Virus record (IMG/VR): IMGVR_UViG_3300037137_000682
Coordinates: 1 to 20,642 of that record
Strand: one strand, 5' to 3'
Source of the DNA: a virus
Length of the DNA: 20,642 bases
Made by a program: the position numbers and the translations under genes
Notes under the pieces: generated by a model
Told to the model about the DNA's origin: nothing
Seen by the model: the letters and a program-made list of their open reading frames with translations, nothing else
The model's database searches: none
In this document: positions 3,190-16,360 of the stretch, piece after piece
Numbering within the stretch: the first letter of the stretch is position 1
Layout of the letters: each line of letters begins with the position of its first letter

Positions 3190-3846
3190 ATGGCAGTAAA
3201 ACTTTTAGGCAATGCAATCCAGCCTACTGATAACGCAGTAGGATACAATCTGACAATCGGTACGTTTACAAGCGCGGCAGTTAATACTGATCCGCTAAAT
3301 AAGCTCAATTCCGCTAAAACAAAAAGTGTGGATATATGCGCTGATGATGGTGGTGCAAACTTTGGCACTACTGATTTGCGTACCGTACGGGCGCGACTGT
3401 TGCTTACTACTGCACAGAGTGGTGCATCGTCTTATGGCGCTATTATGGGGCAGGTAAAAAATACAGCGGCTTGTACATCAACCGGAAATAAATTTGGAGT
3501 TAAGGGATACTATGAGGCTACCAGTACGGCAACGGTATCTAACCTGTCGTGCGGTGTACTTGGTATGATTGATGTGCCTACGAGCGGCGTAATTGCGGCG
3601 AGCGCGGTTGTATCCGCGTTTAATGCGGCCTCGGTATCGCTTGCCGGTACTCATACGGGCAATGCTGTTGGTTTGCAGGTGAGTACCCCTGTAGCAGGTG
3701 CGTGGGATGCGGCGTTGTCGGTAACTGTTGCTGGTGGTTCGGCAGCAAGTGGATCAACCGCTGCCGATGGTACAATCATCGGCAAGGTTAAAGTTTTAAT
3801 TGACGGTGTTGTAGGGTACATTAACTGTTATCCTACCCCTCACTAA
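3190..3846 (+). CDS. Probable head decoration / virion surface protein (218 aa)
   Basis: The ATG is preceded by a strong ribosome site (GGAGG at 3179-3183). The product is poor in charged residues and rich in Ala, Gly, Ser, Thr and Val, with alternating hydrophobic patterns suggesting an all-beta fold. Landmarks are VRARLLLTTAQSG (about residues 67-79), ATSTATVSNLSCGVLGMID, FNAASVSLAGTHTGNAVG, and a C-terminal strand pair GKVKVLIDGVVGYINCYP. A family with this layout, ending in a short K-V-x-I-D-G-x-x-x-Y-I hairpin, is from memory frequent next to coat genes of uncultured phages and is thought to be a virion protein. Decoration is inferred from composition, strong translation signal, own promoter candidate and position before the scaffold and coat genes. 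A head fibre is the main alternative. Confidence 0.6.
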   Translation: MAVKLLGNAIQPTDNAVGYNLTIGTFTSAAVNTDPLNKLNSAKTKSVDICADDGGANFGTTDLRTVRARLLLTTAQSGASSYGAIMGQVKNTAACTSTGNKFGVKGYYEATSTATVSNLSCGVLGMIDVPTSGVIAASAVVSAFNAASVSLAGTHTGNAVGLQVSTPVAGAWDAALSVTVAGGSAASGSTAADGTIIGKVKVLIDGVVGYINCYPTPH

Positions 3847-4876: not shown

Positions 4877-6037
4877 ATGGCAGCAGGCGATTTTACCATG
4901 ACAAGCATTGCCCCGGTACTTTACTCGGCAGCGCAGACAGTTTCACAGGAGCCTATAGGTTTCCTCAATTCAATTTCTACCACGTTTGACGACAAAGGTG
5001 TTGCCAAAGGCGATACCATTTACGTTCCGTATACCGCGAAGAATACGGTTGCTGAATACACGCCTGCGGCTTATGCTGCACTCGGTACTGCGGCCACTGC
5101 AAGCAGTATCGGCGTGGGTATCAGTAATTCTTACGTGGATTCTTGGAGCGTTAGCGGTGAGCAGGAGAGGTCACTTCTTAACGGTGATAACGGCGCTGAA
5201 TGGTTGCGTCTCAAGACCGAAAACGCAATGCGTACAGTTCGCAATGCGATGGAAGTACTCGCGTTTACCGCCGTGAAAAACGGTTCATCCAGAGCGAACG
5301 GCACGGCAGGCACGACACCTTTCGCAAGCGATCTTACGGCACTTACTGCCGCTAAGAAAATCCTGGTGGACAATGGCGCACCGCTTTCTGATCTGCAATG
5401 CGTTATGAACTCCGATGCGGCGATGAATCTGTCGAATCTTGGAATTTACAACCAGGCTATGATTGCAGGAAGCGACACGGAACGGCGTACTGGCCGGTAT
5501 CTTCCTCAGCATGGTTTCAACATCAGCGTATCCGGTGGGATTTCTTCACATACCGCCGGAGCAGGTACTGGCTACGATCTCACATCTGCTTCGCATCCTG
5601 TTGGAACGACGACGCTCATTACTGAGAGCGGAACAGTTAATGCTACCGGTTTTGTAGCTGGTGATGTTATTACTAAAGCCGGTGGAACCACTGACGCGAA
5701 TAAATACGTTATTAATACAGGTCTTGTTGCAACAAGTGGAAATCTTGTAATCAATAGGCCGGGTCTTGTGGTAGTTGGTGCTGATGCTGATGAATTGACA
5801 ATCGGTGGATCGTACACAGGCGCATTCTGCTTTGAGCGTTCTGCTGTTGTTGGTGTTGTGCGTCCCCCGCTGATCCCAGCGAGCGCCATTCTTCAGACTC
5901 AGCTTGTTACGGATCAGTTCGGTCTTACGTATCTGTTTGTCCGTTGCATAGGCGATGGCATCATCACCTATCGAATACACCTCTGCGGTGGTTTCAAGGC
6001 TGTGCAGAATGAACACATTGCAACTATTCTCGGATAA
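4877..6037 (+). CDS. Major capsid (coat) protein, P22-coat-like HK97 fold
   Basis: This encodes 386 aa behind a strong ribosome site (AAGGAGTG at 4864-4871). The N-terminus (IAPVLYSAAQTVSQEPIGFL, then GDTIYVPYTAK) and the following helix with ERSLLNGDNGAEWLRLKTENAMRTV resemble the P22 gp5 type of coat: N-arm, then E-loop strand, then spine helix. A beta-rich, Gly/Thr-rich stretch at about residues 230-315 (from AGTGYDLTSA to ELTIGGS) may be an inserted domain of the P22 I-domain kind. The protein ends with A-domain strands and HIATILG. Position after the scaffold supports the call strongly; the P22-like subgroup is less certain. Confidence 0.82.
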   Translation: MAAGDFTMTSIAPVLYSAAQTVSQEPIGFLNSISTTFDDKGVAKGDTIYVPYTAKNTVAEYTPAAYAALGTAATASSIGVGISNSYVDSWSVSGEQERSLLNGDNGAEWLRLKTENAMRTVRNAMEVLAFTAVKNGSSRANGTAGTTPFASDLTALTAAKKILVDNGAPLSDLQCVMNSDAAMNLSNLGIYNQAMIAGSDTERRTGRYLPQHGFNISVSGGISSHTAGAGTGYDLTSASHPVGTTTLITESGTVNATGFVAGDVITKAGGTTDANKYVINTGLVATSGNLVINRPGLVVVGADADELTIGGSYTGAFCFERSAVVGVVRPPLIPASAILQTQLVTDQFGLTYLFVRCIGDGIITYRIHLCGGFKAVQNEHIATILG

Positions 6038-6047
6038 GGATAAAAAC

Positions 6048-6341
6048 ATGATAACTGTACGATGGATTGACGGTAACAGGACAAAACAGATAGAAGATTC
6101 CAGACTTGCTGAATATCTATCGTATGGTTGGATTGTGTGCGATGATAATGCTAAACAGGAACCGGTAGAAATGCCGGTTCCTGTTGTTTTAACTGAGCAA
6201 GAGCCGTATGTTGATAATACAGAATACGGTAAAATAGTTGCTGTTAATCCTGAACCTGAAAAAGAAATCGGTTCAAATGTTGATAAGCTTGAGGCAGCAA
6301 TGAAAAAACACAAGCGCGGTCGTGGCAGGCCTAAAAAATAA
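6048..6341 (+). CDS. Small protein with AT-hook-like C-terminus (97 aa)
   Basis: The ATG at 6048 has AAGGA at 6036-6040 upstream, overlapping the coat stop codon. The first 35 residues (MITVRWIDGNRTKQIEDSRL...YGWIVC) look like a small compact domain. The centre is acidic and proline-rich, with a PVEMPVPVV segment. The C-terminus is KKHKRGRGRPKK, where RGRP flanked by basic residues matches the AT-hook, a minor-groove DNA-binding element. Short connector-region proteins of phages sometimes end in GRPKK, so this may be a head-completion protein contacting DNA at the portal; that role is inferred. The gene contains a perfect 12-base inverted repeat. Its stop overlaps the next ATG by one base. 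Confidence 0.65.
   Translation: MITVRWIDGNRTKQIEDSRLAEYLSYGWIVCDDNAKQEPVEMPVPVVLTEQEPYVDNTEYGKIVAVNPEPEKEIGSNVDKLEAAMKKHKRGRGRPKK
6154..6185 (+). repeat. Perfect 12-base inverted repeat inside a gene
   Basis: AACAGGAACCGG at 6154-6165 pairs perfectly with CCGGTTCCTGTT at 6174-6185 across an 8-base loop, followed by GTTTT. This is the strongest hairpin seen inside any gene of the window and lies about 120 bases after the coat stop codon. It could act as a weak terminator, a barrier to 3' exonucleases or a processing site that sets coat mRNA level; the T-run is too short for a confident terminator call. Confidence 0.6.
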
Positions 6342-6781: not shown

Positions 6782-7201
6782 ATGGCATATACTGCAAAAT
6801 ACATAGCGTTTACAGATATAACAGATAGTGTTGTCCGTGATTTTGTTCAATCTGGAGCGGAAGATGGACGGCATGATATTTGGATGGAGAACACTGACCT
6901 TGAACTTGAGGCGCTTGCGCTTGAGCGTGGCGTTGTTTCTACGAGTATATATGAAACTCCATTAAGTTACAGGATAAAAGAATATGCGATTGCATATTTT
7001 TGTTTCCTTGTATGTCAAGATTGTACTTCTGAAAATAATGTTGAGGTGCCTGAAAATGAAAGCTATTTCAAAAAATTGATATGGTATAAAGAGCGTTGCG
7101 AATTGCTTAAAAGTCAGATCACAAAAGAAATGTTTATGAATACAGCGCAATCACTCTCTCCTTATCAAATGGTGCAAACAGGAATTTTATACAGATCATG
7201 A
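6782..7201 (+). CDS. Head-tail connector/adaptor candidate
   Basis: This encodes 139 aa and starts directly after the previous stop. The product is largely helical: an N-terminal segment MAYTAKYIAFTDITDSVVRD, a helix with LELEALALERGV, then RIKEYAIAYFCFLVCQDC and a final helix with WYKERCELLKSQITKEMF. Size, helicity and position between a gp10-like gene and a tail terminator candidate match the adaptor proteins (HK97 gp6 / SPP1 gp15 type) that extend the portal, but no sharp motif is seen. The stop overlaps the next start as ATGA. Confidence 0.6.
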   Translation: MAYTAKYIAFTDITDSVVRDFVQSGAEDGRHDIWMENTDLELEALALERGVVSTSIYETPLSYRIKEYAIAYFCFLVCQDCTSENNVEVPENESYFKKLIWYKERCELLKSQITKEMFMNTAQSLSPYQMVQTGILYRS

Positions 7202-7659
7202 CAGCAAGAGCAACAACTATATCTGGAGAGATTGCAACTATTATCAGTGGTATGACCACTGTTGGCGGGTATAACTATACATGGGGAACAATCAACCAGG
7301 CTGATCGTGCGCGTGTGAGTGCGTATCCGTGCGCGTTGATAAGGTATAATACAGAAACAGCGGTTGAGGGGATTAACGGGCTGTATGGATTTCAAGAGGC
7401 TGAAGTAATAATAAGTGTTGATTATCGTATCACTCCAACCCTGACAGTACAACCAGAGATCACAGCTGACAGTGCGCTTGATATGGCATTGGCTGATTTA
7501 ATAAAAGTATTCGGCGCTAACAATACTGGATATTTGCCATTGAGTAAAGAGGCTGTATTGTCGTTTAAGAGCAGCGAGAAAATACCAGATAAGCGTGGCA
7601 ATACGTATCATCCGACAAGTTTAGTGACTAAATGGAATTTGTTTTATCATAATAGTTGA
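7198..7659 (+). CDS. Tail terminator / tail completion candidate (gpU-like)
   Basis: This encodes 153 aa and overlaps the previous stop (ATGA). It begins with a helix MTARATTISGEIATIISGM, followed by strands including ARVSAYPCALIRYNTE and EAEVIISVDYRI, a helix with LDMALADLIKVFG and a final strand VTKWNLFYHNS. The helix-then-beta-sheet order, length and location just before the tail tube gene fit tail terminators, which cap the tail tube and fix its length. No catalytic motif is expected. The assignment rests mainly on synteny and pattern. Confidence 0.6.
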   Translation: MTARATTISGEIATIISGMTTVGGYNYTWGTINQADRARVSAYPCALIRYNTETAVEGINGLYGFQEAEVIISVDYRITPTLTVQPEITADSALDMALADLIKVFGANNTGYLPLSKEAVLSFKSSEKIPDKRGNTYHPTSLVTKWNLFYHNS

Positions 7660-7670
7660 GAAAACAAAAT

Positions 7671-9239
7671 ATGTCATTTCCTATACTCTGGTGGAAAGCC
7701 GAAGATAACCCGAACGAATCCCAAGCCGGGGTTAACGCTGTTTGGAACACTACCACCGCGTACGCAACGGGTAAAGTAGGTAAGGCATTTTCTTTTTCTT
7801 TCGGGTTAGGTGATAACTACGGATTATCAACTGTAAATAATGCGCTTTTTAATTTTGCGGCTACGGGTTCGTTCTCGATACGTTTATGGTTAAAGCTTGC
7901 CGATACGATTATAGGCAATCCAGGGACGTTCGTAGTAAAAGGACTGTATGCTCAAAATAAAAACTACGGTATCGGTATAAACACCTTGAATAATCTTTTC
8001 TTTTATTATAATAATTCAACAGCGGTGAATACCGGGTATACTATAACCGATACAAATTGGCATGACCTTTTATTTACGTATGCAAATGGCAAATGGAATA
8101 TTTACGCCGATAGTGTGAATGTAACGAGTGCGACTATCTTAGCGGGAACGTATTTAATATCAAACACGGATCTATCGTTAATTTTTGCACAAGCATATTA
8201 TAGCGACTTTCAGGGGTTGCTTGATGAAATAAGAATTTATGATAGTGTTATTACACCTAATAACCAGGATGGGCCTATGGTACCTACTTTTCAAAAGCTT
8301 AATTTGCTTACTGCCAAAGTGCAATCTGCACTTGGATCTAAAGCAACGCCAGCGGCAGCAGATTTCATAACTGTTGACGATAACTTTTCACTTGACTATA
8401 AAAAAGAGTTCGCAGAGCAAGCGCTCGCGCAAGGGATATTTGGAAATCCTCAGGCTGTTGCCGGGATGAGTTTGGTTGATGTAAAGGTAACGCTCCCTAT
8501 TATTCCAACCGGATCGGCCACTGTCCCCAATGTCGGCGGGTTCCTTAATTGTTGCGGTATGGTGTATGCACTTGCGACAAAAAAACATTCATGGGCACCT
8601 ACAAGCGTTATTGCGACTAACTGGAAAGATATGACTCTATGGGGTTATACTGGCGATAAAACTGCCGGTGATACTATTATCACCAAGGCTCATAGTGTTA
8701 TGTTCGACTATGAAATTAGCGGTGAGGTTGGGAAACCTTGCACTATAACATTTACTGGCAAAGGTGTTCCAGATGGCGCACCTGCTGCCGGAACTTATTT
8801 GACAGATACTATTGCAGCAATTAGTACTGTTCCGCCTGCTGTTCTCAAAAATGCGACTCAGACTATCAACGGTCTTGCTTTGCACATTCTAAAATTTTCT
8901 GTTAAAGGTGGTAATGATGTGCAGATGATCAAGAATATGGGAGATGAGAGCGGTAATTTGCAGAGTATGATTGTTAATAAAAAGGCATCGTGGTCAGTAA
9001 CCGCATACATGGAAGATGCAAGCTCTATTAATCCAACAACCGGAATGGCTGCTGGCACGCTTGCGACTACTACTATCAAGTTCGGTAGTGCTGCTGATAG
9101 TTATATCAGTATTACAAGCGGATCGAATAAAAGCGAGATACGCGAATGCAAGCAAAGCGTTGATAATGGTCTAATGGTATGGGAAATCACAGGATCATTC
9201 GTTGATAACGATTTTACAGTTGCTATCAATGACGCATAA
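7671..9239 (+). CDS. Tail tube protein with N-terminal LamG (lectin-like) domain
   Basis: This encodes 522 aa, far longer than a usual tube subunit. Residues about 1-200 form a LamG/concanavalin-like jelly roll: an N-terminal strand ILWWKAEDNPN, TGKVGKAFSFSF, GSFSIRLWLKL, NWHDLLFTYANGKWNIYADS and the closing GLLDEIRIYDSVITP, the most typical LamG ending. From residue 203 (MVPTFQKLNLLTAKVQSALG) the sequence is a siphophage tube protein: ADFITVDDNFSLDY, a G-x-x-VDVKVTLPI strand, FLNCCGMVYAL, and late strands ending GSFVDNDFTVAIND. The ATG at 7671 was chosen over the TTG at 7656, which overlaps the upstream stop and has no ribosome site. LamG domains bind carbohydrate or protein ligands; placement on the outside of the tail is inferred. 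Confidence 0.8.
   Translation: MSFPILWWKAEDNPNESQAGVNAVWNTTTAYATGKVGKAFSFSFGLGDNYGLSTVNNALFNFAATGSFSIRLWLKLADTIIGNPGTFVVKGLYAQNKNYGIGINTLNNLFFYYNNSTAVNTGYTITDTNWHDLLFTYANGKWNIYADSVNVTSATILAGTYLISNTDLSLIFAQAYYSDFQGLLDEIRIYDSVITPNNQDGPMVPTFQKLNLLTAKVQSALGSKATPAAADFITVDDNFSLDYKKEFAEQALAQGIFGNPQAVAGMSLVDVKVTLPIIPTGSATVPNVGGFLNCCGMVYALATKKHSWAPTSVIATNWKDMTLWGYTGDKTAGDTIITKAHSVMFDYEISGEVGKPCTITFTGKGVPDGAPAAGTYLTDTIAAISTVPPAVLKNATQTINGLALHILKFSVKGGNDVQMIKNMGDESGNLQSMIVNKKASWSVTAYMEDASSINPTTGMAAGTLATTTIKFGSAADSYISITSGSNKSEIRECKQSVDNGLMVWEITGSFVDNDFTVAINDA
8266..8279 (+). promoter_or_regulatory. Candidate internal ribosome site and start codon for a short tube protein
   Basis: AGGA at 8266-8269 (within CCAGGATGG) stands seven bases before ATG at 8277-8279, which is in frame with the LamG-tube gene. 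The spacing is ideal, and this SD-ATG pair is better than the weak GAGAAAA before the full-length start. Initiation here would give a 320-residue protein that begins at the boundary between the two domains. Confidence 0.5.
8277..9239 (+). CDS. Possible short form of the tail tube protein from an internal start
   Basis: This is a nested, in-frame candidate of 320 aa starting MVPTFQKLNLL, the length expected of a plain siphophage tube subunit. It keeps the whole tube domain and drops the LamG domain exactly at their junction. The known precedent for mixed tube subunits is SPP1 gp17.1 and gp17.1*, where a frameshift adds an extra C-terminal domain to a minority of copies; here the extra domain would be N-terminal and selected by start choice. 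That the internal start is used is an inference from sequence only. Confidence 0.45.
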   Translation: MVPTFQKLNLLTAKVQSALGSKATPAAADFITVDDNFSLDYKKEFAEQALAQGIFGNPQAVAGMSLVDVKVTLPIIPTGSATVPNVGGFLNCCGMVYALATKKHSWAPTSVIATNWKDMTLWGYTGDKTAGDTIITKAHSVMFDYEISGEVGKPCTITFTGKGVPDGAPAAGTYLTDTIAAISTVPPAVLKNATQTINGLALHILKFSVKGGNDVQMIKNMGDESGNLQSMIVNKKASWSVTAYMEDASSINPTTGMAAGTLATTTIKFGSAADSYISITSGSNKSEIRECKQSVDNGLMVWEITGSFVDNDFTVAINDA

Positions 9240-9266: not shown

Positions 9267-9539
9267 ATGATACCCGTATCCTCAAAGGAAAGTATTGAAT
9301 ACGTTGACAGTGATAAAGTTGTATGGAAATTTAAGCCAAAGACAGGATCACTGGAAAAGGAAATGTTTGGAATTTACGATGAAAACATTGATTACAAAGC
9401 ACGTTTGACTGTTGTTGATGCTTTCATTGATAAAATCCTAATAACTCCTAAAGCTGATTATAACAGTGATGAGCAGGCTGAAATAATTAAGTATTGGAAC
9501 CTGGCGAACAGACTAACCACAGAGGAAAAAAAAAGTTAA
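9267..9539 (+). CDS. Tail assembly chaperone G
   Basis: This encodes 90 aa behind AAAGGGG at 9252-9258. It begins MIPVSSKESIEYVDSDKVVW with beta strands followed by helices (ENIDYKARLTVVDAFIDKIL, then EQAEIIKYWNLANRL), the usual make-up of the G chaperone that coats the tape measure before tube polymerisation. It lies between the tube and the tape measure, exactly where G/GT genes sit. The gene ends GAG GAA AAA AAA AGT TAA, so the ribosome meets a run of nine A residues just before the stop; slippage there makes the longer GT product. Confidence 0.8.
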   Translation: MIPVSSKESIEYVDSDKVVWKFKPKTGSLEKEMFGIYDENIDYKARLTVVDAFIDKILITPKADYNSDEQAEIIKYWNLANRLTTEEKKS

Positions 9540-9973
9540 TTGTCGCAGTTTTGATGCAATATAAACCGTTTTCATTGGCATATAATTGCGGAAATTGTGA
9601 TAAAAAACAGAAAAAAGATCGTGGATGCAATAGGAATGTAAAAAATAACCTACAAATTGACTGTACTTGTGGTGGGGTTGATGGATGTGAAATATGTTGC
9701 AGGCCATTGTCGAAAGGCAAGCGTAAGAAAATAAGCTGGGGTTGGTTTAATATTAATCGGTGTCCTGTTAGTTTTTGTAATGATATAAATATAAACAGAT
9801 TTATTCCTTACTTCTGGCATTTTAAGGCGACAAACAATATGTGCTATCCAGATGGACAAGGAAGATACGAACAGCCTTCAAAACTATTGGAGGCTTTTTC
9901 TATTTGTGGATTCATGGCTAACAAGCGTGAACAAATAGAAATTGATAACGCAAACAAAATGGCTAAGAAATAG
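9267..9973 (+). CDS. Tail assembly chaperone GT, made by -1 frameshift
   Basis: The run of A at 9526-9534 followed by G gives the heptamer A AAA AAA (9527-9533) in the G frame. A -1 slip after the AAA codon at 9531-9533 leads into the overlapping open frame, read from AAG at 9533-9535 to the stop at 9971-9973. The fused product is 235 aa: 89 from G, then 146 from T. The T part is rich in cysteine, with C-x2-C at residues 108/111, C121 and C133-x-C-x5-C-x2-CC at 133-145, suggesting metal binding. It also has a YPDGQGRYEQPSKLLEAF segment of the kind seen in T domains of other phages. A weak stem (9556-9563 with 9581-9589) follows the slip site. G/GT pairs of this kind are established in lambda-like tails. 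Confidence 0.82.
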
Positions 9974-9982
9974 GTTGATATT

Positions 9983-11590
9983 ATGGCTGAACATGACATT
10001 AATGTAAAATTAAATGTTGTAGATAATATGTCACAGCCTATTGCTGATGCTTCAAAGAAGGTCGATTCCTCACTGAAGCAGACAAAAGATTCATTTAAGG
10101 GTTTGGGTGATGAGATAAAGGGCAATTTTGTTAATGCTATTAAAGGCGCTGTTGTTGCTTATATTGGAATGCAGGGAATACAAAAAGTAACGCAATTTTT
10201 AAAAGAATCAAGATTAGAATACCAGGAATCTGTTAGAGTTCAAGCGCAACTCAGAACTGCGTTAGGATATACATCAACTGCATTAAATCAACAAGCGGAA
10301 GCATTAGGACAAAAATTAAAAGTTGACAACGAAGAAATTACTGCTGTACAGGTTAAAATAGCTAATTATGTTAAAAATGATGAAGCTGTAAAGCAATTAA
10401 CTCCAGCTATTCTTGATCTTGCTGCTGCAACTGGCATGGACATGGCAAGTGCGGCTAACATTGTAGCAAAAGCTATAAATGATGATTCAGATGAATTGGG
10501 TAAGTTTAAAATAGCGGTAGATGGCGCAAGAGGGAGCGCAGAAAGAACGCAATCTGTTATTGATGGATTAACTTCAAAATTTAAAGGTCAAGCAGAAGCC
10601 CTAACAACATCAAAGGATGGGTTTGATGAGATGGCTTTATCTTGGAAAAATTTTGAGGAAAAGGTTGGAGGAAGCAAGGTACTTAAATGGTGGGCTGATG
10701 GTGCTGCACGTATAGTTGATTTGTGGACTAATGGAATGGAAAAAGTATTGGGAGTAGATAAAAAAACAGCAGAATCAGAAGAAGAAGTTGCAAAAAACGC
10801 ATCTGATAAAAAGGTATCAATATTAAAAGCTGAACAAGATTTAAAAAATCAAATAAGACGCGATAACTTAGAAAAATACAAAAAAATTAAAGAGGAAGAA
10901 TACCAGGCTGCAATTGATTCTATTGAAATTGAGAAACAATTGAAGCAGGAAGAATATGATGCAACTATTCAATCACTTGAAATTGAAAAACAATTACAGG
11001 TTGAAAAAATAAATGGAATAATAAAAATACAAAATGCTGAGGCAGCAGCAAGACAGAAAAAAATTAATGATGATTTATTAATTAAAAAATCTGATAATGA
11101 AAAATCTAAAAATGCAGTAAATAATAGTCTTGGAATGGCTGCTCAATTATTTGAAGGCCAAAAAAAATATATAGGAGCATATAAGGCATTTGCAATATCT
11201 CAGGCTATAATGGATACCTGGGCAGCAGCTAATACAAACCTTAAAAGCGCACCTATGCCGTGGGGTGGTATTGCCGCTGGGTTTGCTGTTGCTCTTGGCC
11301 TTGCAAACGTAGCAAAAATATCAAATCAAAAATTTGAAACTGGAACGGCATTCGCTCCTGGTGGTATGTCGTTAATCAATGAACAGGGTGGGGAATATGT
11401 CAATTTACCGCGTGGATCGCAGGTATATAATAATACTCAGACTCGCAATATGACAACAAACGCGGCTCTTAATGTGACAATTATGGATAGTAGTGGTAAT
11501 ATTACCGAAACGATACGGGCTCAGTTACGTAGCGGCCAGGGTGATCAACTGGTGCGTGATATTCAAGCGAAAATGGCACGGCAATTATGA
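9983..11590 (+). CDS. Tail tape measure protein
   Basis: This encodes 535 aa, mostly alpha-helical. It opens MAEHDINVKLNVVDNMSQPI, contains a hydrophobic stretch around residues 46-62 (FVNAIKGAVVAYIGMQGI) and a long helical body. Near the C-terminus comes the segment KAFAISQAIMDTWAAANTNL, then PWGGIAAGFAVALGLANVAKI and FETGTAFAPGG, which is the standard tape measure ending. An 18-residue repeat is present in the body at 10892-10999. At roughly 0.15 nm per residue this length suggests a tail of about 80 nm, short for a siphophage. The gene is A-rich until about 11,220 and more balanced after that, as if the C-terminal part had a separate origin. The stop overlaps the next start as ATGA. Confidence 0.87.
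   Translation: MAEHDINVKLNVVDNMSQPIADASKKVDSSLKQTKDSFKGLGDEIKGNFVNAIKGAVVAYIGMQGIQKVTQFLKESRLEYQESVRVQAQLRTALGYTSTALNQQAEALGQKLKVDNEEITAVQVKIANYVKNDEAVKQLTPAILDLAAATGMDMASAANIVAKAINDDSDELGKFKIAVDGARGSAERTQSVIDGLTSKFKGQAEALTTSKDGFDEMALSWKNFEEKVGGSKVLKWWADGAARIVDLWTNGMEKVLGVDKKTAESEEEVAKNASDKKVSILKAEQDLKNQIRRDNLEKYKKIKEEEYQAAIDSIEIEKQLKQEEYDATIQSLEIEKQLQVEKINGIIKIQNAEAAARQKKINDDLLIKKSDNEKSKNAVNNSLGMAAQLFEGQKKYIGAYKAFAISQAIMDTWAAANTNLKSAPMPWGGIAAGFAVALGLANVAKISNQKFETGTAFAPGGMSLINEQGGEYVNLPRGSQVYNNTQTRNMTTNAALNVTIMDSSGNITETIRAQLRSGQGDQLVRDIQAKMARQL
10892..10999 (+). repeat. Tandem 54-base repeat in the tape measure gene
   Basis: Two adjacent 54-base units (10892-10945 and 10946-10999) encode EEEYQAAIDSIEIEKQLK and QEEYDATIQSLEIEKQLQ, matching at most positions. 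Tape measure length sets tail length, and gain or loss of such units changes it in steps of 18 residues (about 2.7 nm). The copies differ at the DNA level, so the duplication is not recent. Confidence 0.75.
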
Positions 11591-12441
11591 GTGTTACGCT
11601 AAGGACTATATCCCCATTGCCTGCTTATTCAATCACGATTAAGCAGCCTTATTTCATGTATTCTACTGTAATCCGCATGGGTTTACACTATTCACGTACT
11701 CAATCAGGATGGAAAATAGGTGATGATACCAGTACATACGATTCACGTATCTGTGAGATACCTACATGGATTTTAGACGCTACAGATCAGCTTGCACTCA
11801 ATACTTTTTTCAATGATGAGACAATAGGACGGGGTAATAATTTTCAACTTGAATTAGGTACGGCAAGCGGTTTTTTTCCGTTTGGAGCTGATAAGGGAGA
11901 TAGTACAAATTTTATATGCTCATTGGTTCAGTTTGATCGTAAAGGAGCGCAATTAAACCCATATTTACATCATCTGAATGCGTTAAAAATTGCTTACGTC
12001 AGCGGGCCATCGAGCGCGTATACACCAGCGGCAGCAGAATCAGAGGGAACACTACAGATCGGAACTGTGACTACATTGCGGCCAGTACAAACATTCCCGC
12101 AGGCATTGCAAGAGCAATCAATAATCCGTGAGGTATCACGCGGTGGTGTTGTTTCAAGCGTTGACTGCGGGACTACTGGAGACTATAACGAGACTGCGCT
12201 TGACCTTGAAGTAAGACCTGGTAATTGTGCTGCATTGATAACATATTTATTAAGTGCCAGAGGTGGAGATATTACGGTTGTAACTCCTTCTAATACGTGG
12301 CTATTTGGATTGCCTAATGATTATATGGGAACATATACAACTAAACTATTATCACCTGAATTAAAAATAGTTCACGATAATTATAATTTGTTTAAAATGC
12401 AGATTAAATTATGGATGAAATCAAACGATACTTTGCATTAA
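11587..12441 (+). CDS. Distal tail protein candidate (284 aa)
   Basis: The gene starts within the stop of the tape measure gene. The product is beta-rich, with SITIKQPYFMYSTVIRMGLHYSR near the N-terminus, PTWILDATDQLALNTFFND around residue 60, and a C-terminal strand set ending FKMQIKLWMKSN. The position directly after the tape measure and before a very large tail-tip gene is that of distal tail (Dit) proteins, which form the hexameric adaptor between tube and tip. No Dit-specific motif was recognised, so this rests on synteny and fold-like pattern. A 9-base gap separates it from the next gene. Confidence 0.55.
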   Translation: MSVTLRTISPLPAYSITIKQPYFMYSTVIRMGLHYSRTQSGWKIGDDTSTYDSRICEIPTWILDATDQLALNTFFNDETIGRGNNFQLELGTASGFFPFGADKGDSTNFICSLVQFDRKGAQLNPYLHHLNALKIAYVSGPSSAYTPAAAESEGTLQIGTVTTLRPVQTFPQALQEQSIIREVSRGGVVSSVDCGTTGDYNETALDLEVRPGNCAALITYLLSARGGDITVVTPSNTWLFGLPNDYMGTYTTKLLSPELKIVHDNYNLFKMQIKLWMKSNDTLH

Positions 12442-12450
12442 TGGTAAATT

Positions 12451-15279
12451 ATGGCAAATTTAATTATACAGGCTGTTGAAATAAAACTTGGTCAAGAATA
12501 CATAGAAGATACAAGCATAGGTCTTTATACCATATCTTCGCTATCGTATTTGCGATGGAGTGAAGCAACATTAACTGGAGTATCTGAAACCTGGAAAACA
12601 GGAATACTATTAAAAAATGGAATTGGAGATATTACCGAAAGCAGCAATTTAGAGCGTGGTGGAAATATCGCAGAATATTCTGGTTTAAATGTAGGTGTCG
12701 CTAATGCTGAAAGTATTATGCAATCACTTAAAGATTTGCAAATTAATTTAATTGGTTTGTCTGCAACAGTTACAGAATTTATAGGTACAATTGGCGATAG
12801 TGACGCGACAAGCAGAACTATTATTTTTACTGGAATTGTTGAAAATATTTTATGGGGCGATACTGAATTGGTTATATCTTTTAAAAACTCGTTATACAAA
12901 AGGGAAACAAACCTATCAATTACTAATGAAAACGATGTAACAACACCTGTATGTTTTGGACAATTAACCCCTACATCAAGCAGCGTTATTGAAAATATCG
13001 CTAAGTTTGTAAGAAAAATAGATAGCTATGATGAAACGGTATATACTAATGAATATTTTACTGGAACAAATCCAGAAATAAAAATATTTCCAGTTAATAA
13101 TTTGACATCTACTATTGATATATTAATATTCAGCAATGGAAATACATTAAGGAATGAAACATTAAGGCCAGATAATTGTTATATGTTGGTTAAAGATGGA
13201 ACAGGTGAGGGCCAGATTAGAAAAGTAAGTTATATAGTTACATCTGGAATTAATAATACTATAGCTTGTCAAATAGATAGCGTTTTTTATACTACGTTAT
13301 CAAGTACTAATGATAATACAAGATCGTGGGTACAGTTAATAGCAATCGACAGAGAATATACGTGTGATAGTTGGCCTTGCAAATCATTTACTAATAATTA
13401 TGGAACTGAAATAAATACCCCTCAATTACATATATACGAAGATGACAAATTTAACAGAATATCAGATTATAGCTTTTCTGTTGATTCAACAGACAATAAT
13501 AATTTAATAATAGACGGTCAACAATATAGTGAAGAAACTGGAATACAAAGCATTGACAGTGTTAAAAGTTTTATAATACTATCTGCAACAAGTTTAGAAA
13601 AAGAAACAGCATCAACGCTTGACTCTTATCCCATAGGCGGGAAACAAAAAGTCGAGGATGGTTTATACGCTAATAACGCTTCTAATTTTTCTTCTCGTGT
13701 TCATGTTGATTCTAACACATTAACTGATGCGGCAAAGGCATACGATAAAGACCCAACCACCTATGCTGATTATCATTCCAAATTTAGTGTAATCACCGTA
13801 CAAGAAACTTTTTGGAAGGTATTAAAATTCGGACTGCCTGCTATACCTAAAAATGTAAGCATAAACAAAATATATTTAGGTATTCATGCTCACGCAAATA
13901 GCCCAGCAAGTGCTTATAGCGTCAGCTTCCAATTTAAAAGATTTTTATATACAAAAACTACTGACGCATGCTTTTCTAAAACTACCGGTGACGTTGCAGA
14001 TATTGATGATTTACCAGATTTTTATTATGAAACTAATAAACCAAGTACTAATAATATTCATTTTTACAAACAGGTTGATTCTGATCCTGATTATAACGGG
14101 TATACTCTTTTTGAGTTATCTGGCGTATCGGCTGAAGAATACGAAACGTATTTAAATGGTGCTTTGATATTTGGGAGTACACTTGCTGTTCTTCCTTTTG
14201 GCTATAGAGAGGATTCAATTCATATACATGATATAGCTATAATTTTTGAGTTAAACTCCAGTACAATAAGCGAAAATATATATGCTCCTATTAAGGGGCG
14301 TATTTACAATGATACATGGGGATCAAGGAAAACGGCAGCGAACTTAATAGAGTATCCGCATGATATAATTGAGCATTGCAAGCGTTTACAGAATTGGAGC
14401 GAAATTCAGGCCTTTACTATTGCTGATTGGGGCCATGAGTACGCTGCTGATTCTTTGATTAAAACAGGAGCAACAGAGGGAAGTTTTGATAATTCTTATA
14501 TAACTACTCTAACTAATCAGGAATGCGCTTTTCAGATTACCGATAAAGATAAGGCCACAACAACAGCAATCACTAAAAAAATATGCGATACATTCGGCCT
14601 ATGTTCTTACATTAATTCTGATGGTTACGAATGTATAGCAACATTAGAATTAATTGCTCCATCTGAAAGTATTACGCTTGCTGATTGTATAGGAGGAATT
14701 GGGAACGTAATAGAGCCTAAAGTTGAAAATATTTTTTGTGAGCCTGTAATAAATTATCAATATAATCAAGGTTCTGAAAAATACGACAAGTCATTAAAGG
14801 TGACAAATATTGATGCAACAGCCTGGCAATCTTCTTATACTCCAGGGTATGAAGATGCTGACGGTGAGGTTGTTTGGAATACGTGTAAGGCCTTGTACGA
14901 TAAATATAGACAGGTTGAACAATGCCCACAAGATTTTTCAGATCAATATTGTATATCTGATTATGATACTGCTGTATTATGTGCTAAAAGGAAAATAGCA
15001 TGGATGGATAGGGCTCGGTTGCCTACAATACAGGTTGCTTATAGCAAAGGAAAAGATTATAATATATATAAGCACTTGATGATTCAATTGCCAAAGCACA
15101 CTAACAATGTATCGGTAGAATGTATAATTGAAAAGATAGTAAAAAGCAAGTCAAAAGGTATAGTTTCAATAAATTGTGTTATATTAGGTAATGTAGAAAA
15201 TGCATGGTATGATACGAGTGATAGTTCGGCAGAAAAACAGGATACGCCAGACACAGGAGATGAGATATATGACCAATAA
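12451..15279 (+). CDS. Large tail hub / tail-tip protein with a beta-sandwich insertion
   Basis: This encodes 942 aa in AT-rich DNA. Residues about 1-390 hold an N-terminal region (MANLIIQAVEIKLG, then IIFTGIVENILWG and LYKRETNLSI) of the kind found in tail-tip proteins of uncultured siphophages. Residues about 391-612 look like an inserted carbohydrate-binding-type beta sandwich: AAKAYDKDPTTYADY resembles the entry of discoidin-like domains, followed by strands such as FWKVLKFGLPAIP and YSVSFQFKRF. From about 615 (GRIYNDTWGSRKTAANLI) to the end is the hub-like part, with DIIEHCKRLQNWSEI and ARLPTIQVAY. A tail hub role is inferred from size and location between the distal tail candidate and the fibre genes. 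Its end overlaps the next gene by 11 bases. Confidence 0.6.
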   Translation: MANLIIQAVEIKLGQEYIEDTSIGLYTISSLSYLRWSEATLTGVSETWKTGILLKNGIGDITESSNLERGGNIAEYSGLNVGVANAESIMQSLKDLQINLIGLSATVTEFIGTIGDSDATSRTIIFTGIVENILWGDTELVISFKNSLYKRETNLSITNENDVTTPVCFGQLTPTSSSVIENIAKFVRKIDSYDETVYTNEYFTGTNPEIKIFPVNNLTSTIDILIFSNGNTLRNETLRPDNCYMLVKDGTGEGQIRKVSYIVTSGINNTIACQIDSVFYTTLSSTNDNTRSWVQLIAIDREYTCDSWPCKSFTNNYGTEINTPQLHIYEDDKFNRISDYSFSVDSTDNNNLIIDGQQYSEETGIQSIDSVKSFIILSATSLEKETASTLDSYPIGGKQKVEDGLYANNASNFSSRVHVDSNTLTDAAKAYDKDPTTYADYHSKFSVITVQETFWKVLKFGLPAIPKNVSINKIYLGIHAHANSPASAYSVSFQFKRFLYTKTTDACFSKTTGDVADIDDLPDFYYETNKPSTNNIHFYKQVDSDPDYNGYTLFELSGVSAEEYETYLNGALIFGSTLAVLPFGYREDSIHIHDIAIIFELNSSTISENIYAPIKGRIYNDTWGSRKTAANLIEYPHDIIEHCKRLQNWSEIQAFTIADWGHEYAADSLIKTGATEGSFDNSYITTLTNQECAFQITDKDKATTTAITKKICDTFGLCSYINSDGYECIATLELIAPSESITLADCIGGIGNVIEPKVENIFCEPVINYQYNQGSEKYDKSLKVTNIDATAWQSSYTPGYEDADGEVVWNTCKALYDKYRQVEQCPQDFSDQYCISDYDTAVLCAKRKIAWMDRARLPTIQVAYSKGKDYNIYKHLMIQLPKHTNNVSVECIIEKIVKSKSKGIVSINCVILGNVENAWYDTSDSSAEKQDTPDTGDEIYDQ

Positions 15280-16360
15280 AATAGCTTTTTTTGTGACTTT
15301 GATTGTAGTTGCAGTATTTTCAGGGACTACTAATGTAAGAATATATCATCAGGCTGTTGCCTCTCCTGCTAGTGTTCGGAATAAACAAATAGGTGTAAAT
15401 ACAGGGCTTGATGCTAATATTGGATATAAAATGTGGTTTGGCAAGGACGCTGATGGAAATGTGACTCAATTTTTAGCCAAGGATAAGAACGCTCGTGTAC
15501 TTTCCATGCGGCAGGATTCATCTTTTAGCAAAAAAGATACCAGCGGATTATATAAGGGAGATTCAGCATTTATCAGCGGATTAAAAGCGACACGAGCAAA
15601 TATTACTTCTAACCGTGGAGATACAATCTATTCAGTACGCGATACATCAAAATTAATGAAAGCAGATAGCGGTAATTTTTCAAAACTTGCAACCGGATCG
15701 CTGTCTATTGATACTGCTGTGGTGGGTCATGTTTTAACGCTTACAAAAAATAGCGGAACATATGCTACAAGCGGAATGATTTGGAACGATTCAGCAGAAG
15801 CGAGCTTTGAAAATTTTTCCAATGGAATAAAAGGAACATTTAACCGTTGCTTATTTGCTCAAGATGATATTACTCTCGACTCTAACTCAACAGGTGAAGT
15901 AAGTATGCGAGGGGACGATACTATTCATGGTTGGCTTCCCGGCTCTGATTCTCTACCTGCAAATTGGTTTAGGAGAGGCAAAAAATTAAAAATTATTATT
16001 CGTGGTATATATTCAAGTAAGGCTACGTCTCCCGGAACAATGACTGCCAAGTTAAAATTAAATGATACTATAGTGGCAACAACAGGAGCTATACCTTTAT
16101 CAAATGACCAGACAGACGAAACATGGTTATGCGAAGGCGCAATTTCTACCAGAGCTGTAGGGGCGTCGGGTTCTATTGTTTTCGTTTCGGCAATGCAGTT
16201 TGCAGTTGCGAACTTATGGAATAAAGCAAATTTCTATACATTAGGAAAAACAATTAATACAACTATAAAACAAAGACTCGATCTTACTTTGCAGTTTTCA
16301 ACTGCTGATGCTAAAAATAAGGCGCGTGTAATTCAATTTGAACTTGATGAGATACATTAA
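15269..16360 (+). CDS. Tail-fibre-like protein with N-terminal signal peptide
   Basis: This encodes 363 aa. The ATG at 15269 is supported by AGGAGA at 15255-15260, eight bases upstream. The N-terminus MTNKIAFFVTLIVVAVFSG is a hydrophobic stretch of signal peptide/anchor type. Next comes a segment like tail-fibre starts (VRNKQIGVNTGLDANIGYKM then FGKDADGNVTQFLAKD). Two loose repeats follow, DTSGLYKGDSAFISGLKATR and DTSKLMKADSGNFSKLATGS. A C-terminal beta-rich domain from about residue 190 (FNRCLFAQDDITLDS to VIQFELDEIH) may be receptor-binding. A fibre is the best guess by position and composition; the export-type N-terminus is odd for a virion part. Confidence 0.6.
   Translation: MTNKIAFFVTLIVVAVFSGTTNVRIYHQAVASPASVRNKQIGVNTGLDANIGYKMWFGKDADGNVTQFLAKDKNARVLSMRQDSSFSKKDTSGLYKGDSAFISGLKATRANITSNRGDTIYSVRDTSKLMKADSGNFSKLATGSLSIDTAVVGHVLTLTKNSGTYATSGMIWNDSAEASFENFSNGIKGTFNRCLFAQDDITLDSNSTGEVSMRGDDTIHGWLPGSDSLPANWFRRGKKLKIIIRGIYSSKATSPGTMTAKLKLNDTIVATTGAIPLSNDQTDETWLCEGAISTRAVGASGSIVFVSAMQFAVANLWNKANFYTLGKTINTTIKQRLDLTLQFSTADAKNKARVIQFELDEIH

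Follow-up and report, generated by a model that had tools for sequence, protein, structure and literature searches.

An N-terminal LamG domain on a phage tail tube protein, with a candidate internal start for the plain subunit

When a lectin-like domain is encoded in frame ahead of a phage tail tube protein, is it carried by every subunit of the tail shaft or only by some of them? The question is raised by a 20,642-base virus record (IMG/VR IMGVR_UViG_3300037137_000682), the whole of which was analysed and is called the window here. Its genes are arranged from head to tail, with PHROGs assignments to portal, head morphogenesis, major head protein, tail completion and tape measure, and the tail features given below lie on the plus strand. 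A single open reading frame runs from TTG 7656 or ATG 7671 to 9239, between a 153-aa gene (7198..7659), which is 54-67% conserved in the related viruses L007 and L008 and is named a tail terminator or completion protein from its position, and a frameshifted gene pair (9267-9973). Its first 202 codons (7671..8276) encode a LamG (Laminin_G_3) domain, followed in the same frame by a 320-aa tail tube protein (8277..9239). We propose, with a probability of roughly 0.6, that this one gene gives rise to plain tube subunits and scarcer LamG-bearing ones, which would co-assemble into a mixed tube.

An earlier note on this DNA had described a LamG domain fused to the N-terminus of a tail tube subunit, and profile searches of both halves agree with that description. 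Residues 55-197 match Pfam PF13385 (Laminin_G_3) over profile positions 9-148 of 151, nearly the whole domain, with a score of 62.2 bits (curated cut-off 27.6; E 7.8e-17), and the LamG domain alone scores 64.6 bits; by phmmer, residues 28-198 match an arabinanase chain of solved structure (5hon; E 1.7e-5). The tube half can be linked by hhalign to an annotated tail tube protein, as set out below. The boundary at 8276 is exact, as unfused relatives begin their tube gene at the codon that follows it. All six records of the virus (the window and five contigs from five other metagenome data sets) carry the fusion with an identical joint and differing LamG alleles, and the fused frame is continuous in 7/7 fused records, the seventh being L007. 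The suspicion of an assembly artefact is contradicted, since five further records of the same virus carry the fusion. A full-length AlphaFold2 model (input of seven sequences, namely five of the six records of the virus, with L003 omitted, and two tubes) reached a pLDDT of 34.9 and was set aside.

The sole Pfam match of the tube half is Phage_tube_2 (PF18906), at 18.7 bits against a curated cut-off of 27 (E 0.0014); this family matches two of the three tube lineages, with a best E of 7.2e-4. A search with the L008 tube recovers a protein of Agrobacterium phage JP1 annotated as "tail tube protein" (E 4e-5), which itself scores 61.9 bits in PF18906, and a three-lineage tube profile aligns with JP1 by hhalign over residues 9-312 (probability 95.6, E 1.2e-8). 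The window tube is thus probably a distant PF18906 relative, tube-like in role yet outside the family cut-off. PHROGs and NCBIfam gave no tube match for the tube half, tblastn of the tube and of the LamG domain against cultured phages gave no match, and a tube profile search of PDB sequences returned chance matches alone. Two candidate relatives were rejected: in Synechococcus phage Ssp-JY42, the nearest relative by capsid (48%), the gene that takes the place of the tube could not be aligned (hhalign probability 0.3), and the tube of a Thiobacimonas phage gave a weak hhalign match (probability 11).

The identity of the tail tube is also supported by gene order, because it is followed by a chaperone frameshift layout and then by the tape measure, an order with a similar layout in cultured relatives. 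The putative short form of the tail assembly chaperone (lambda G-like, 9267..9539) returned no match in a profile search and is named from its position and the frameshift layout. A run of nine A (9526..9534) is a candidate -1 frameshift site that would join it to a lambda GT-like extension in the -1 frame (9535..9973; 65-71% identity in L008 and L007). This run is kept after GAGG in all three lineages, and the -1 frame behind it is open and conserved. The 535-aa tape measure protein (9983..11590) matches tape measure families in PHROGs, with a best E of 1.7e-6.

The tube alone was also modelled with AlphaFold2, from an alignment of 52 sequences (the window, L007, L008 and 49 of 80 contig relatives), and this model (pLDDT 70.5, pTM 0.76) was searched with VIA-align and with Foldseek. 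VIA-align places it closest to the tail tube of T5 (Z 21.8, rmsd 3.8, 289 aligned residues, 3-320 on 3-356), followed by those of P74-26 (Z 20.9) and SH-Ab15497 (Z 19.1), and residues 187-320 and 3-181 of the model separately match single-domain tubes. On the predicted structure, the tube half has the duplicated tube fold of T5 and P74-26, with two beta-sandwich domains per chain. The P74-26 tail tube, the closest fold class, has two tube domains, trimeric pseudohexameric rings and a smooth exterior; unlike the window protein, it has no extra domain according to the text available (PMC10034513). The ring had been expected to be a hexamer and is instead probably a trimer, because the predicted fold is of the duplicated T5/P74-26 class, which is trimeric in P74-26. 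As a rule of thumb, a tail measures about 1.5 Å per tape-measure residue and each ring about 40 Å, so that the 535-aa tape measure would correspond to about 20 rings of three, or about 60 subunits at most. LamG copies would be fewer than this if the fused form is the minor one.

The sequence around the joint bears on how many subunits are decorated. Inside the fused frame, an in-frame ATG (8277..8279) aligns with the position at which unfused tube proteins naturally begin and is preceded by a Shine-Dalgarno-like motif, AGGATG (8266..8271), with a spacing of 5 nt; L007 has CGGAGG and L008 has AGGAGG before its native start, both also at 5 nt. Calculated against the consensus anti-Shine-Dalgarno sequence, duplex energies are -7.0 kcal/mol at 8277 in the window, -9.5 at 6001 in L007 and -10.7 at the native start of L008, compared with -2.7 (at 7671 in the window) and -2.8 for the starts of the long forms. 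Counting the sites themselves, a motif as strong precedes only six of the 95 in-frame ATGs of the window and two of the 56 of L007. The motif is kept in both fused lineages, in spite of differing encoded peptides (NNQDGP and YEAEAP), and synonymous sites between the two lineages are near saturation (pS 0.70).

The long form has two candidate starts (7656..7673), and ATG 7671 has a weak Shine-Dalgarno sequence. The TGA of the upstream gene overlaps TTG 7656 (TTGA; ATGA in L003), and the upstream stop lies 11 nt before ATG 7671; in L007 the distance is 8 nt. This arrangement suggests that initiation of the long form is probably coupled to termination of the upstream gene.

Part of the internal signal may be due to chance, because synonymous recodings of the linker, with peptide and codon use held fixed, produced a Shine-Dalgarno motif at least as strong in 4557 of 20,000 cases (23%) for the window and 1226 of 20,000 (6%) for L007; these fractions, if independent, multiply to about 1.4%, which is suggestive but falls short of proof. 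The predicted mRNA structure at 8277 (-9.5 kcal/mol) is unexceptional, with 34% of 74 internal ATGs being as open or more so. The argument from the internal methionine is weakened by the packing role of the N-terminal methionine in P74-26, as the residue could be retained here for packing (as Met1 is there) and not as a start. Overall, we regard the sequence evidence for an internal start as moderate. The earlier note had pictured dozens to hundreds of carbohydrate-binding sites along the shaft; LamG is probably not present on every subunit, because the start codon of the tube and its Shine-Dalgarno-like motif survive inside the fused frame.

We read the locus as a tail tube gene preceded, in the same frame, by a cassette that encodes an adhesion-type domain. 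Ribosomes arriving from the upstream gene would start weakly at 7656 or 7671 and make the LamG-tube protein of 522-527 aa, and others, starting at the tube's own AGGA/ATG (8277), would yield the undecorated tube of 320 aa. Plain and fused subunits would co-assemble, and in a minority of them LamG would protrude as a knob from the exterior of the shaft. A mixture would be needed because in this class of tubes the N-terminal methionine lies at the subunit interface, so that a tube made wholly of fused subunits might assemble poorly. In P74-26, Met1 takes part in intraring contacts, and rings stack only once the N-terminus has left its socket, which thereby controls assembly (PMC10034513, in the part accessible to us). 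In T5, the tube N-terminus is involved in contacts between rings, and tubes no longer form when it is deleted (PMC8718954, likewise in the accessible part). By analogy with these tubes, a domain of 202 or 318 residues (the latter in L007) on a short linker should be hard to fit on all subunits. The LamG knobs would make weak, multivalent contact with host surface glycans; from the domain family and by analogy with the tube extensions of lactococcal 936 phages, such contact with surface or matrix glycans is the most likely function.

The strongest competing explanation, though in our view an unlikely one, is that the fused protein alone is made and that all subunits carry LamG, in the way that lambda and T5 tubes carry Ig domains, the internal Shine-Dalgarno motif and ATG being remnants. 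The unbroken frame of all seven fused records fits this explanation, as does the strength of the motif, which synonymous coding can attain by chance. Against it, the long-form start is weak whereas the internal-start motif is strong, and the motif is kept in both fused lineages although synonymous sites are near saturation. It is also harder to reconcile with the interface position of the N-terminus in the P74-26 and T5 accounts available, and the added domains here abut the tube on short linkers. That fused subunits are few and confined to the first or last ring, forming a LamG collar or tip or slowing tube growth, is improbable; the role of the P74-26 N-terminus in socket opening and ring assembly (PMC10034513, accessible part) would accommodate it, but the argument is one of analogy with P74-26. 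Still less probable is that LamG is separate in effect, as a precursor cut by a protease or as a long form left unassembled. Phage structural proteins are, in general terms, known to be processed, but a free protein would not need two unrelated domains in frame without a stop codon, and a cursory look identified no protease or cleavage site. A chimera of two genes is hardly credible, for although every record is a metagenome contig, the joint recurs in five contigs of five other data sets and an analogous joint is found in L007.

Searching viral contigs with the tube gave seven loci. Five of them, L002-L006, are the same virus as the window (tube 99.7-100% identical) and all have LamG. In L007 (tube 80% identical), a 318-aa domain unlike LamG occupies the same slot; it has no Pfam match, and its C-terminal end gives a sub-threshold NCBIfam choice-of-anchor Q match (E 0.0055). 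From the look of its sequence and from recall, this domain is probably a right-handed beta-helix adhesin. L008 (tube 67-68% identical) is without an extension and starts, after AGGAGG, at the methionine that is internal in the window. The same fusion thus recurs within the virus but does not extend to the two more distant relatives, which have an unrelated domain and no domain, respectively. On these comparisons, the N-terminal slot appears exchangeable, holding LamG, a different domain or nothing. Because the tube alignment pairs the window with L007 (80% versus 68%), the simplest history would be a single gain of the cassette followed by domain exchange. Further alignment searches with the tube or its neighbours recovered the same contigs again, and genome contigs gave no relatives. 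The collections searched hold two fused lineages only, which counts against the mixed-tube reading.

Within the virus population, the two parts of the gene vary to very different degrees. Across the six records, 40 of 606 LamG sites are variable, as against 4 of 960 tube sites; the neighbouring genes have 2/459 and 3/417 (two upstream genes) and 8/270 (the next downstream gene). Most LamG variation (31 of the 40 sites) falls within a tract of 135 sites (7905..8039), with six variable sites before it and three after. This tract has two main haplotypes (pS 0.30, pN 0.068, pN/pS 0.23), and allele exchange appears to account for most of its variation because the two haplotypes have silent differences too. 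With a pN/pS of 0.23 in the variable tract, positive selection on the LamG domain overall is not supported. Replacements within the haplotype groups are concentrated at codons 82-86, 116-120 and 167, and replacement versus silent changes number 13 versus 8 in group B and 3 versus 2 in group A, which are small counts. We also considered the tract as the target of a diversity-generating retroelement and rejected this, as the window has no second copy of the tract and the changes also fall at positions other than A; the search for a template repeat covered the 20.6-kb record. Variation of LamG between strains beside a near-invariant tube suggests that decoration of the shaft changes quickly in nature.

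More tentatively, and at somewhat less than even odds, we suggest that the N-terminal cassette is a swappable slot for tropism, in which the retained internal ribosome-binding site would set the ratio of plain to decorated subunits, such that domains could be swapped and LamG recombined with tube assembly left untouched.

The earlier note had also held that an N-terminal lectin-like domain on a tube is undescribed, and our surveys uphold this within their scope. In 17 of 17 cultured relatives compared, the annotated tube starts at the position of the internal ATG of the window; none has an N-terminal domain, and at most 49 codons are open before the start. These are 17 of the 18 distinct matching cultured phages, Rhodovulum phage RS1 (same score as RC1) having been left out. 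Among the best 80 of 573 viral-contig tube relatives, no N-terminal extension was found, with at most 28 codons open before the tube match; these serve as a control for the wider family and not as near kin, because they are nearer to a cyanophage tube. A scan of viral contigs for LamG motifs picked out at least 120; among the 120 listed, the tube profile matched two, both already-known records of this virus (3300031885_000208 and 3300032342_000178); phmmer found LamG (E 0.001) in just 8 of the 120, which makes this a weak survey. The Rhodobacter phages RcZahn, RcDurkin and RcTitan have Phage_tube_2-type tubes with large pieces inserted inside the tube sequence, and not ahead of it as in the window. 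RcTitan, in which the Pfam match begins at residue 239, was rejected as a case of N-terminal extension, as the canonical first strand precedes the insert by comparison with KL1 and LPPA15; the insert was read as internal from a shared DSN...AEEEC..QLP stretch, whereas MAFFT placed the gap elsewhere. In the text available from the literature searched, we found no tail tube protein described as bearing a LamG or lectin domain at its N-terminus, nor any description of exchangeable N-terminal tube decorations. Phage LamG domains are reported there in other proteins (PMC9127768, PMC8541153, PMC7504290, PMC12038007).

Decorated tubes are themselves already known, with domains that are C-terminal or inserted, some of them under frameshift control. 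Lambda gpV, T5 pb6 and YSD1_22 likewise have an extra domain on the tube exterior (a predicted position here), and T5 pb6 shares the duplicated fold predicted for the window tube; their domains are Ig-like and C-terminal or inserted, the placement of tube domains given in the accessible parts of reviews (PMC8718954, PMC9022992). In SPP1, gp17.1 and gp17.1* occur at about 3:1, a C-terminal FN3 domain being added by a +1 frameshift (PMC6316719, text available). The window gene is similarly predicted to make two products, with and without an exposed domain, for a mixed tube; unlike in SPP1, its domain is an N-terminal in-frame LamG with a putative internal start, and it lacks a C-terminal extension by programmed frameshift. 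In lactococcal 936 phages, TpeX tube extensions with carbohydrate-binding modules bind host cells (PMC6669499, text available). They resemble the present case in being a partial extension of the tube (predicted here) with modules that vary between relatives, and differ in that theirs are C-terminal and made by programmed frameshift. The closest parallel in translation comes from phage endolysins, in which in-frame internal starts yield two isoforms (PMC9430671, accessible part): one reading frame with two starts gives a C-terminal isoform beside the long form, as predicted here, but those proteins are lysis enzymes and not parts of the virion. N-terminal decoration would contrast with the view that the tube N-terminus is occupied by contacts between subunits, and competing start codons would be a further route for dosing decoration. 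If true, this would be a natural plan for displaying varied domains on a phage tail.

Elsewhere in these genomes, L007 has a 769-aa gene (10280-12589) inserted between the homologues of the window genes at 11587-12441 and 12451-15279. It has a signal-peptide-like start and weak matches to beta-roll and YadA head repeats, and from its sequence it appears to be another adhesin-like insertion in the tail module. In the window, an ORF at 15200-16360 without matches in family searches overlaps the end of a 942-aa gene; near MTNKIAFFVTLIVVAVFSG it contains a segment of membrane or signal type. Finally, genes at 3190-3846 and 5955-6341 are 59-100% and 78-95% identical, respectively, between records that are otherwise near-identical, a pattern by which mosaic exchange appears to reach the head region as well.
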